Below, one piece after another: positions 5,363 to 11,035 of a DNA stretch of 64,000 bases. How positions within the stretch are numbered: position 1 is the stretch's first letter; every line of letters starts with the position of its first letter. Source of the DNA: Dermatophagoides farinae (lineage: Eukaryota > Arthropoda > Arachnida > Sarcoptiformes > Pyroglyphidae). Under the pieces are notes generated by a model. The model saw only the letters and a program-made list of their open reading frames with translations. It searched no databases and was not told the origin of the DNA. The stretch lies in assembly GCF_024713945.1 (NCBI RefSeq), contig NC_134683.1, positions 2,977,501 through 3,041,500 of the forward strand, read 5' to 3'. The position numbers and the translations under genes are program-made.

Positions 5363-5869
5363 TTGAATTGAATCGTTTTGATCCATTTTATTCTATATTC
5401 AACATTTTTTTTCACATTTTCGCTTGATTTCAAAATATTATAATTTGTATGAGTTTGAAATAAAAAAAAAAAATAAAAAAATTCCATCAATTCTGATGAT
5501 GGAAATGAATATAATTCAGTGTTTTGAAAAACTTTTATTTGTATACACTTGATCATCATTTCATTCAATCAGAATAAAAAAGAGAGATAGAGAGATGGGA
5601 AAAAAAGGAAAAAAAAAAAAAACTAAAATCAAATTCTATCAGAATCGACAGAATTGTTTGATTATCATCATCATTGTCATCACCATCACCATCAACAACA
5701 ACAATAACAATGTGTTGACATTGTCCAATAAATCGCATCAACACACACACACGAAAGAGATATTGTCAACGATTTCCCCCCCCCCAAAAAAAACGATCAA
5801 AACAAAACAAACAAATATTGAACAACAACAACAACAAAAACATATACACGAAATAACAATCAACCAATC
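5363..5869 (+). repeat. Long direct repeat, left copy (flanks retroelement piece)
   Basis: This ~507-bp block is repeated at 7001-7499. Both copies run from TTGAATTGAATCGTTTTG to CAATCAACCAATC. The differences I see are in homopolymer or short-repeat lengths: the A runs near 5462-5480, the A run near 5605-5622, the C run near 5777-5785, the GAGA unit near 5581 and the CAA count near 5822. It contains GAT/ATC and CAA repeats and looks like ordinary local sequence, not an LTR. The piece between the copies is retroelement-derived, so this is either a very long target-site duplication or a tandem duplication that trapped the element. Confidence 0.88.
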
Positions 5870-7004
5870 TTGGGGTCTAAGTTTTGATGTTCTACGATTG
5901 ATTTATTTACATGCAATTGAACCATTAATTACTTATGCATCACCTGTCTGGTTTTATTCTTTATCAAAAACGAATGTCAAATCTCGCTTATTATCAATTC
6001 AGCGTATTTTTGCTCTGTCAATAATAAGAGGATATCGAACTATCTCTTTAGAAGCTTCTTTAGTGTTGGCAAATATCGTACCTATTGATTTAAGAATAAT
6101 TTATCTTGCCAATATGTATCGCATTAAACATTGTTTACCAGTGGATCACTTATCAAATTTAAAATTTCAATTAACGTTGCCTGTTGAGGATTTTCACCAT
6201 CCATCTGTATCTTTTAATTTTTTAAATAATGTTTGTAATTTTAATCACAATTATCATATTTATACTGATGGTTCAAAATTGGCCGGTCATGTTGGGTGTG
6301 CAGTTGTGATTTTTCCTGCTAATTCTAATCAATCTATTGATATTTTAAAATTTCGTTTGGCTGATTCATGTTCCATTTTTCAAGCTGAATTATTTGCAAT
6401 CTATCAAGCATCTGAATGGTTAAAAAGGAATAATCAATCCGCGAAAATCTTTATTGATTCATATTCTGCTCTTCTTGCTTGTTGTTCAAGTAAAAGTAAT
6501 GATTTATTGGTTCATGGTATTCAATTAAATTTGGTTGGAATACATTTTTGTCTTCAATGGATACCTTCACATTCTGGCTATCTTGGTAATGAACTGGCTG
6601 ATCAACATGCAAAAGATGCTACAAATCTCTCTTATATTTCGTATGATTTTTGTCCAGTTTCCTTGGCAAAATATTTTTTGAAAAATATAATGTTTTATTA
6701 TTGGGATAATCGCTGGAAAACAAGTAGAGATGGAAGTGTTACAAGACGCTTCTTCCCGTCTATTTATGATCGTTTATCATACTATATTGATCTAAATTTT
6801 ACTTTAGTTCAATTTTTATCCGGACATGGTAAATTTCGTCATTATTTATATAATATTGGGTATTCTACTGACTCATCGTGCTGGTGTGGAATAGATACTC
6901 AAAATTCTATACATTTAATTTGCTATTGTCAACGATTTGCGAGTCCTCGTTTCCAGATTGAGAACCGGTGTGGTTTATCTTTACATGAAGAGACCTTGCC
7001 TTGA
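5870..7004 (+). mobile_element. Non-LTR retrotransposon fragment: RT C-terminus, RNase H and zinc-knuckle tail
   Basis: An open frame continues from the left repeat through the whole insert and ends at TGA 7002-7004, just inside the right repeat. The start at 5595 is an artefact of reading through flanking repeats; element-derived protein begins near 5870. The first ~120 codons match the post-RT (thumb) part of R1/jockey-like LINE ORF2 proteins, with an LIYLHAIEPLITYASPVW-type motif. An RNase H domain follows with all four acidic positions kept: TDG (Asp at 6267), AEL (Glu 6387), IDS (Asp 6456) and NELADQHAK (Asp 6600), plus an HSG motif. The tail has a SGHGKF...C-W-C-G...H...C knuckle as in these elements. 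The 5' part (endonuclease, RT palm and fingers), the 3' UTR and a poly(A) tail are absent. The intact frame suggests a young insertion. Codon use is T-rich (TTT/ATT), unlike the GAT/CAA style of the neighbours. Confidence 0.88.
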
Positions 7005-7499
7005 ATTGAATCGTTTTGATCCATTTTATTCTATATTCAACATTTTTTTTCACATTTTCGCTTGATTTCAAAATATTATAATTTGTATGAGTTTGAAATA
7101 AAAAAAATAAAAAAAAATTCCATCAATTCTGATGATGGAAATGAATATAATTCAGTGTTTTGAAAAACTTTTATTTGTATACACTTGATCATCATTTCAT
7201 TCAATCAGAATAAAAAAAGAGATAGAGAGATGGGAAAAAAAGGAAAAAAAACTAAAATCAAATTCTATCAGAATCGACAGAATTGTTTGATTATCATCAT
7301 CATTGTCATCACCATCACCATCAACAACAACAATAACAATGTGTTGACATTGTCCAATAAATCGCATCAACACACACACACGAAAGAGATATTGTCAACG
7401 ATTTTCCCCCCAAAAAAAAACGATCAAAACAAAACAAACAAATATTGAACAACAACAACAACAACAAAAACATATACACGAAATAACAATCAACCAATC
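7001..7499 (+). repeat. Long direct repeat, right copy
   Basis: This is the second copy of the 5363-5869 block, about 499 bp, starting exactly where retroelement sequence stops. After CAATCAACCAATC the left copy runs into the element (TTGGGGTC) and the right copy into unique sequence (GCATAAACGATAGG). That pattern is expected if a single original ~500-bp locus was duplicated around the insertion. Confidence 0.88.
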
Positions 7500-8602: not shown

Positions 8603-11035
8603 ATGAAAATGAAAACCAGATCCAACAAACAAAATCAAACACGTTCATTTATTGTGGATAGATTGTGGTCAAATAATAATAATGACCATTATCAACATAA
8701 TAATAATAATCACCATCATCATCAATATTGTTATGGACATCGTTTTTATATGGCAATAATATTTACCAATCTATTAGTATGTACAATTGTATATTATGTA
8801 ACAATTACATCAATATGTCGTATCGATAATCAGTCATCATCATTACAGCAACGATCATCAAAATTTAAACATTTTGTATTTGATCATCATCCATTTTATG
8901 GCCACCAACAACAACAACAACAGCAACAACATCATAAATCGTATGACGATGACCAACGTCCACTATTATCAAATTATGTACAAATTTCTGGCTATTTGAA
9001 AACAAATCTAGATGTTCTTTATGATTATTACAATGAAAATCGAATACATCAACATCAAAAACAGTCACAGCAATCACTAAATTATTATGATCAAAGTTCC
9101 AAAATAAAAAAAATGATGATTATAGATGAAAATTTTCTAACCGAATGGTATCGTTTGATGTATGCATTGATTGAACGATTGGATGATGTTGATGAAAATG
9201 ATATAAAACATTTACGATGGCAACGACAAAACAAATTGAAAAATTTAATCTGGACGAAAATTGATCAATTACAAAATCCAAAGAAACATTTGATAAAAAT
9301 GGATGCCAATACCAGCAGCAGCAGCAGCAACAACAACAACAACAATAGTATAAATCATCATCATCATGAAATCAAACATAACAACGATTTCGACAACAAC
9401 AACAACAACAATAACAGAGAAAAGCAATCATTGCCTCATGAAACAACAACAACAAACAATTGTAAATCGATAAACAAGATTGTTTGTGATGCATATAAAT
9501 CTTGTGGATTTGGTTGTTTTGTGCACCATATGGCCTATTGTTTGATTGCTGCATTGGCATTGAACAGGACACTAATTCTATATCCAAGTATAGAAAATTT
9601 TGACTTTAGTGATGAAATTAGTTCATCAAGTAAAAACAACCACTATTACCAACGATTATTCAAGTCATTCAAATCGATCAATTCAATTTGTGATATTAAT
9701 AGTAGTGACGGTGGTGGTGGTGGTGATGGTGGACCACAACAACAAAAATCACCATCAAATGATTGGATGTCGAATGCAGTAAACATTAATGATGTAATCA
9801 ATCACAAACAAAATCAGAAACTAAAAACAATTGATAGAAACAATAATAATGATGATGATGATGACAACATTGAATTGATCTATTTACCCATAATTGAAAA
9901 TTTAGACAATCGTGCAAAGTTTCGTCCAATGGCTATACCAGAACAATTACGTAAACATCTGGAACAATTGACTCGTATGCCTTTTGTTGTATTTTTAGGT
10001 TCAATTATAAGTTATATAATGCGTTTGAATGATGAATTTGAACGAAAATTCCTTCAATATCGTCAACGAATTAAATTCCGTATTAATGATGATGACAATG
10101 ATGATGATGAAATATTTATCGGAATACATGTACGTCGTACAGATAAATTATTCGGTGAAGGTGAATATTATCCATTAAGTGATTATATGAAAATTGTTCA
10201 AAGAATTTATGACCGTATCGATATACAAGATGCTATGATGATGATGGAAAAAAATAAAAAAATTAAGAAACGTGAACGTAAAATTTATCTAGCCACTGAT
10301 GATATTACCGTTTGGCAAAATGAAGTACCACAATATATAAAACAGGGTTATCGATTTTATGGTGATTCACAGATAACTAAATCTGCATCACCAGGTCAAC
10401 GTAATACAGCCGAATCATTCGATGGTTTCATTATGGATGTATTATCATTAAGCTATACTGATTATCTAGTCTGTACATTTAGTTCACAAGTTTGTCGATT
10501 AGCATATGAATTGATGCAAGTACAACGAACAAATGGTCGTGATATGTCCACAAATTTTTATTCACTTGATGATGTCTATTATTTTGGTGGTCAGGTATTT
10601 ATTATTATTATCATATCATCGTGTGTGTATAGATTTGAAGGAAATTTTCTGATTTTATCGAAAGATATCATCATTATCAGCATCATCTTCACCACTATCC
10701 AATATTTACATTGTAAAAATAGCCAAGCTTTTGTTTTTCTTTATTTATTGTTTTTGCATTTATAGATTTCACATCGACTTGAATCGATAATGGCCAATCA
10801 TCATCCACCACCATACGTTCATAATGGCAATAATGATAAGATCAACAATAGCCAAAAACAACATAAATTCAATGTTGGTGACAGTTTAGGTATTGAAAAA
10901 AATTTACATAATGGCTATTATTTAGGTGATCTTTATGAAACAAAAATCCAACGACTATTAGATCGTTCACTTGCATATCCAATATTCAAAGTGATTGAAA
11001 AAATTGATTCAACATCATTTAAAGCTTTTGAATAA
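8603..11035 (+). CDS. FUT8: Alpha-1,6-fucosyltransferase (FUT8-like), two exons
   Basis: This Golgi type II membrane enzyme transfers fucose from GDP-fucose to the innermost GlcNAc of N-glycans. The exons are 8603-10594 and 10766-11035, joined in phase 0 after YYFGGQ. The 171-bp intron starts GTATTT and ends TTTATAG. The predicted protein is about 753 aa against ~575 in vertebrates. There is one membrane segment at residues ~49-72. A cysteine-containing segment at ~297-325 (CGFGC, HH, YC) matches the catalytic domain start. Donor-binding motifs are HVRRTDK (509-515), YLATDD (562-567) and CTFSSQVCR (624-632). The second exon carries the C-terminal SH3 domain (VGD...NGYYLGDLY). The extra length is low-complexity Asn/Gln/His/Ser/Gly/Asp runs between the stem and catalytic blocks. 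An AATAAA at 11031-11036 overlaps the stop codon. The start codon is the first ATG giving a short cytoplasmic tail; an earlier in-frame start is not excluded. Confidence 0.93.
10595..10765 (+). other. FUT8 intron
   Basis: A GT-AG intron of 171 bp. Without splicing the frame would read on to a TAG at 10763-10765 and lose the SH3 domain. Splicing restores the continuous FUT8 reading frame (GGQ then ISHRLES). Confidence 0.88.

Follow-up and report, generated by a model that had tools for sequence, protein, structure and literature searches.

Several described systems come close to the locus reported here. In mouse zygotes, pieces of retrotransposon truncated at both ends are captured at breaks (RMDR), with microhomologies of 1-7 bp at the joints, some of which are imperfect (PMC4516963). 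Class 2 templated sequence insertions in humans are also made of pieces of retrotransposon or cDNA and normally come without target duplications (PMC5110952); the same source recounts the endonuclease-independent insertion of LINE-1. A further group of systems concerns the duplication of local DNA. Tandem duplications of up to 4.9 kb in rice have been ascribed to the repair of adjacent nicks, with the tandem share of insertions dropping above 125-200 bp and standing at 5% by 200 bp (PMC7971508). Nearby-nick tandem duplications in rice are covered as well in section 4.3 of PMC7407515, and it is through these two papers that the patch-mediated, or paired-nick, duplications of Vaughn and Bennetzen 2014 are cited. 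Breaks made by nickases in mouse and in human cells have also been reported to give tandem duplications, in an account that brings in CST and Pol alpha-primase (PMC8355091).

The stretch of DNA analysed here (the window, 64,000 nucleotides) is C7:2977501-3041500 of the 62.4-Mb Dermatophagoides farinae assembly. On C1 of this assembly an exon encodes the mite allergen Der f 2 (120 of 121 residues as in PDB 1ahk), with Der p 2 giving lower scores. The preliminary description of this stretch had claimed that near-identical direct repeats of about 500 bp exactly bracket a 1131-bp retroelement fragment, and a genome search together with alignment confirms it, the features in window coordinates being as follows.

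5363-5869 (507 bp), forward strand: block copy 1, intergenic, ordinary DNA (genome match and alignment)
5867-5869, forward strand: ATC at the 5' junction, the 3-bp microhomology common to the block end and the LINE donor
5870-7000 (1131 bp), forward strand: internal fragment of a LINE ORF with RNase H, truncated at both ends, with no 3' UTR or A-tail
6249-6620, forward strand: RNase H domain (Pfam PF00075, 2.7e-08; residues 127-250 of the frame at 5871-7001)
7000-7001, forward strand: 3' junction, from LINE ORF to the start of block copy 2, no microhomology
7001-7499 (499 bp), forward strand: block copy 2 (genome match and alignment)

Block, insert and block are joined without extra bases. The alignment of the two block copies has 493 matching columns, 14 gap columns at five places and 3 nominal mismatches, and all of these differences are confined to homopolymer (poly-A, poly-C), AG or AAC tracts, with ordinary sequence free of substitution, which bears out the earlier statement that the copies differ only in the lengths of simple repeats. 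At full length the block has only these two copies in the whole assembly; the remaining 18 of the 20 matches listed in the genome search are no longer than 107 bp, and 17 of the 18 fall on the ATC/AAC-rich stretch of the block (query 243-349). When the 64-kb window was scanned for direct repeats of at least 50 bp and at least 85% identity, with ordinary complexity and a separation below 6 kb, this pair was the only one to pass, and the arrangement of block, insert and block is therefore far beyond chance. A wider scan for block-spacer-block arrangements covered 331,133 bases, made up of the window and 62 of 67 partly overlapping loci (5 that repeat the window locus being omitted), and gave pairs of at least 50 bp in at least 16 of the 62 loci, none of them among the 13 protease/ML loci (L053-L065); all 16 pair-bearing loci had been chosen for matching the LINE, and the sample is too small and biased to give a background rate. 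In one of the loci scanned, L013, a direct repeat of about 380 bp is part of a tandem array of about 105 bp. A 51-nt piece of the block had 0 exact matches in prokaryotic and viral contig collections, which hold no animals, so this says little.

Downstream of the structure, after about 1.1 kb, comes the first start codon of a FUT8-domain ORF (8603-10765; PF19745, 7.3e-78). The frame of the insert is open as far as a stop at 7002-7004, and a predicted chimeric frame of 469 aa runs from an ATG at 5595 in block copy 1 through the LINE fragment to this same stop; it is probably accidental.

The origin of the insert is internal to a LINE. It is identical to a copy on contig C8 at 1130 of 1131 bases and to a shorter copy on C4 at 861 of 861 bases from window position 6140 on; when positions 5863-6994 are used as the query instead, the figures are 1127/1128 and 855/855. 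The single mismatch is at window position 6461, where the window has A and the C8 copy T, and as the C4 copy has the base of the window, the donor was either other than the C8 copy of today or the C8 copy has changed later. The insert stops short of the end seen in the C8 copy, without the final 67 nt of the ORF (a count that takes in the stop codon), the 3' UTR of about 60 nt and the A-tail, and its 5' end is a cut within the ORF, so that the fragment is indeed truncated at both ends and without 3' UTR and poly(A), as had been noted. All four RNase H acidic residues had also been said to remain, and the insert translation does contain YTDGS, QAELF, IDSYS and NELAD, which we take to carry the four acidic positions expected of that domain.

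The C8 copy runs further upstream than the insert, into a reverse transcriptase (Pfam RVT_1, 2.3e-24), and is itself 5'-truncated, whilst less closely related elements of this genome whose ORFs are longer (L028, L030) have an AP-type endonuclease, reverse transcriptase and RNase H. No complete source of the subfamily was seen among the 72 of 168 candidates scored (a lower bound), the only match over the whole ORF of the C8 copy at more than 46% protein identity being the C8 copy itself. The preliminary description had called the event recent, which fits the near-identity of the insert and of the blocks; the homopolymer differences, however, are possibly consensus errors and unfit for dating. 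Dating from the block differences was dropped, since these fall in low-complexity tracts.

Related LINEs in this genome show some further patterns. Those with long ORFs (about 1,200 aa in many cases) are concentrated at chromosome ends (C2, C3, C4, C6, C7 and C8; among others L032-L042, L044, L049 and L052), with at least 25 of the 79 listed LINE matches within 60 kb of a contig end (contigs C2 to C8), and TTAGG repeats adjoin a LINE at the right-hand end of C4 (L039). By analogy this clustering resembles that of telomere-associated LINEs, for which a literature search returned no mite title among the matches listed. Two LINE segments (query 237-433 and 495-616, 74-80% identical) recur together at five loci (C3:6866676, C7:2380847, C7:936335, C3:6742797 and C2:3927950), which from the sequence looks as if a fixed fragment had multiplied. 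At C5:2830100-2833148 (L070 1-3049) lies a palindrome without a spacer, at least 3 kb long and running up to the limit of the sequence analysed there, its arms about 97% alike and with a LINE-like frame on both strands; it is either a real inverted duplication or a read artefact from a missed adapter.

How the family inserts elsewhere was read from those copies that reach the 3' end of the element. Eight such matches were among those listed, and six were examined, with the duplications read by eye (the other two being C4:3013480 and C5:2405318, both of 76% identity).

C8 copy: A-tail, 14-bp duplication
C4 copy: A-tail, duplication of up to 10 bp (7 without three bases common to the element)
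C2 copy (76 bp): A-tail, 12-bp duplication
C4:3750727 (90% identical): A-tail, duplication of up to 12-13 bp, partly common to the element
C6:3531571 (81%): A-tail, degenerate duplication of about 12 bp
C6:10664 (79%): A-tail, no evident duplication

All six thus have an A-tail and five of the six a short target duplication of about 10-14 bp, which answers the earlier call for the flanking duplications of other copies. No long direct repeats were found in the 9-10 kb surrounding the C8 and C4 copies, and the C8, C4 and C2 copies establish that the family inserts with 5' truncation. The family normally inserts by ordinary target priming and a 507-bp duplication is not its habit; with short duplications at five of the six 3'-end copies examined, the element itself is not normally a maker of 500-bp duplications.

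Not every close relative of the insert is tailed. At about 95% identity or more there are at least six loci among the 50 matches listed, which are the best-scoring candidates so that further loci may exist, and three of these are tailed (C8, C4, C2) and three internal and tailless: the window piece of 1131 bp, one at C3:6824057 (152 bp, 94.7%) and one at C5:566474 (42 bp, 100%). The last of these (C5:566474-566515) is embedded without a tail in DNA rich in simple repeats. No flanking duplication was seen around the C5 piece within about 0.6 kb per side or around the C3 piece within up to 3 kb, and the best 24-mer matches on the far side of the insert are 24 and 24 for the window piece, as against 15 and 14 for C5 and 18 and 15 for C3, where 40 random window positions gave 14-21 in the same test. 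Among the tailless pieces only that of the window was seen between duplicated flanks. The tailless pieces therefore support the capture of fragments, but no regular tie between capture and duplication. It is conceivable, if improbable, that tailless LINE fragments are regular break-patch material in this mite, with the locus in the window being a case where both sides of a wide stagger had been filled in by the time the patch was sealed in, and thus a composite class of duplication and retroelement patch; this idea draws on three of the six listed loci being internal and tailless.

What the joints themselves hold in the way of possible end-joining features is 3 bp of microhomology on the 5' side and 0 bp on the 3' side. 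A microhomology of 3 bp or more arises by chance with a probability of 0.085 (from 200,000 pairings of a target with a donor position, drawn at random), and the ATC at the 5' junction is compatible with a microhomology-driven step without being evidence for one.

The explanation preferred here, tentatively and at somewhat short of an even chance, is that the locus is a recent scar of DNA repair, left when a break with a wide stagger was filled in and then patched with a captured fragment of the LINE. Such a break would have had one nick in each strand, with about 507 nt between them, and fill-in would leave the block on each broken end. The ends would then have been joined via the captured fragment, which may have been cDNA or a piece of DNA, with one joint possibly made through the ATC microhomology and the other a plain end-join. 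A staggered break patched with retroelement cDNA was one of three alternatives between which the preliminary description did not choose, and it is the best explanation of the data here.

A repair scar is suggested by the exact succession of block, insert and block with the block otherwise unique, by the insert having neither 3' UTR nor tail, unlike the tailed C8, C4 and C2 copies, and by the short duplications in five of the six examined tailed copies, together with the lack of any local direct repeat around the C8 and C4 copies. The two further tailless internal pieces on C5 and C3 are what one would look for if patches are made from captured pieces, and there are printed precedents for double-truncated captures (PMC4516963) and for tandem duplications by nick repair (PMC7971508). 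Counting against it, the C5 and C3 pieces have no flanking duplication (for C5 over about 0.6 kb per side), the 3-bp microhomology is not significant (P 0.085), and a stagger of 507 nt is long when set against the rice data, in which the tandem share is 5% by 200 bp (PMC7971508).

The alternative that survives best, unlikely but a serious rival, is an artefact of assembly or haplotype, where a 5'-truncated LINE would sit at 5869 on one haplotype and the contig would have been misjoined inside the LINE to the empty haplotype 507 bp upstream, producing a false second block. The published D. farinae assembly merged FALCON, WTDBG2 and Flye contigs by Quickmerge at a heterozygosity of 0.52%, and was Illumina-polished with a QV of 36 (PMC11074847). 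The block lengths differ at five low-complexity tracts, as alleles could, the 5' joint by itself could be an ordinary 5' truncation, and a misjoin would also give a blunt 3' joint like the one found, which is without microhomology; the spacerless palindrome on C5 (at least 3 kb, about 97%) looks, moreover, like an uncorrected read artefact in the same assembly. However, the window contains no N, the 2.1-kb structure is short enough for long reads to span, and the rest of the window has no comparable pair. The blocks also have zero substitutions, when a heterozygosity of 0.52% leads to about 2.6 per 500 bp (by estimate a chance of about 7% for zero).

Template switching of the MMBIR, SDSA or polymerase-theta style is slightly less likely again. 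Synthesis would run off the block end into a LINE copy at the ATC, copy 1131 bp, and return 507 bp upstream to copy the block anew, with an end product identical to that of the staggered break. The 3-bp microhomology lies where the first switch would be, and insertions from ectopic or several nearby places are known in the repair literature (PMC7407515 section 4.3; PMC2671141), but there is no microhomology at the second switch, and a DNA donor is required when the only long donor among the listed matches, that on C8, differs by one base.

It is doubtful, more so than either of the foregoing, that an ordinary LINE insertion was followed by unequal end-joining with an uninserted homologue or sister chromatid, or that LINE cDNA bridged to a break in the sister chromatid. 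Insertion with 5' truncation is shown for the family by the C8, C4 and C2 copies, and a tandem duplication of 22.6 Mb bridged by LINE-1, with the element between the copies, is described from cancer (PMC7058536). In the bridging reported there, though, the 3' breakpoint carries an endonuclease motif, whereas the joint here is without 3' UTR and tail, and the two-step version demands an additional break within the LINE.

Lastly, target-primed insertion by the element with its own nicks 507 bp apart, making the repeats an exceptional target-site duplication as had been considered earlier, formally fits the order of block, element and block but is rejected as scarcely credible, since the end to be primed has no 3' UTR, tail or shared base and the six other 3'-end copies examined, all tailed, comprise four with duplications of about 10-14 bp, a fifth with a degenerate one of about 12 bp and a sixth with none evident.

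With the repair scar as the preferred reading, the locus can be set beside the systems described at the outset. A limited search of the open-access literature gave no title on this exact make-up in a mite, and no claim of priority is made. As in RMDR, class 2 insertions and endonuclease-independent LINE-1 insertion, there is truncation at both ends, no A-tail and short or no microhomology (PMC4516963; PMC5110952). The insert is, as in class 2, a tailless, both-end-truncated fragment of a distant template. The RMDR and class 2 events described are, however, without target duplication (apart from one 4-bp example in PMC4516963), whereas the present target carries a duplication of 507 bp, so that the locus may be said to work like class 2 and is not a strict member.

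The likeness to paired-nick duplications is that local DNA which is otherwise single-copy is present twice in direct orientation, in a kind of duplication ascribed to opposed nicks and break repair; the typical case has no foreign insert between copies that are directly adjacent, whereas here the 1131-bp LINE piece separates them. The cancer duplication bridged by LINE-1 likewise has a piece of LINE flanked by both copies of what was duplicated, but is 22.6 Mb in size with an endonuclease motif at its 3' breakpoint, compared with 507 bp and neither 3' UTR nor tail in the window (PMC7058536).

Ordinary target-primed insertion differs from the locus in both its marks, as there is no end with 3' UTR and A-tail, and the duplication is of 507/499 bp versus short ones elsewhere. 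The rotifer non-LTR element R9, which reportedly makes long target-site duplications of 126 bp, is similar in lying between unusually long direct repeats, but there the long duplication is a property of the element, whereas the duplications at other copies of the present element are short. The locus also serves as a warning against equating a retroelement between long direct repeats with a long target-site duplication before further copies in its family have been looked at. Each of the parts is already known and their combination is a new example, not a new kind; if real, it is a clean and recent natural example in which duplication by fill-in is joined to the capture of a piece of retroelement, and it comes from an arthropod that is not among the usual models.
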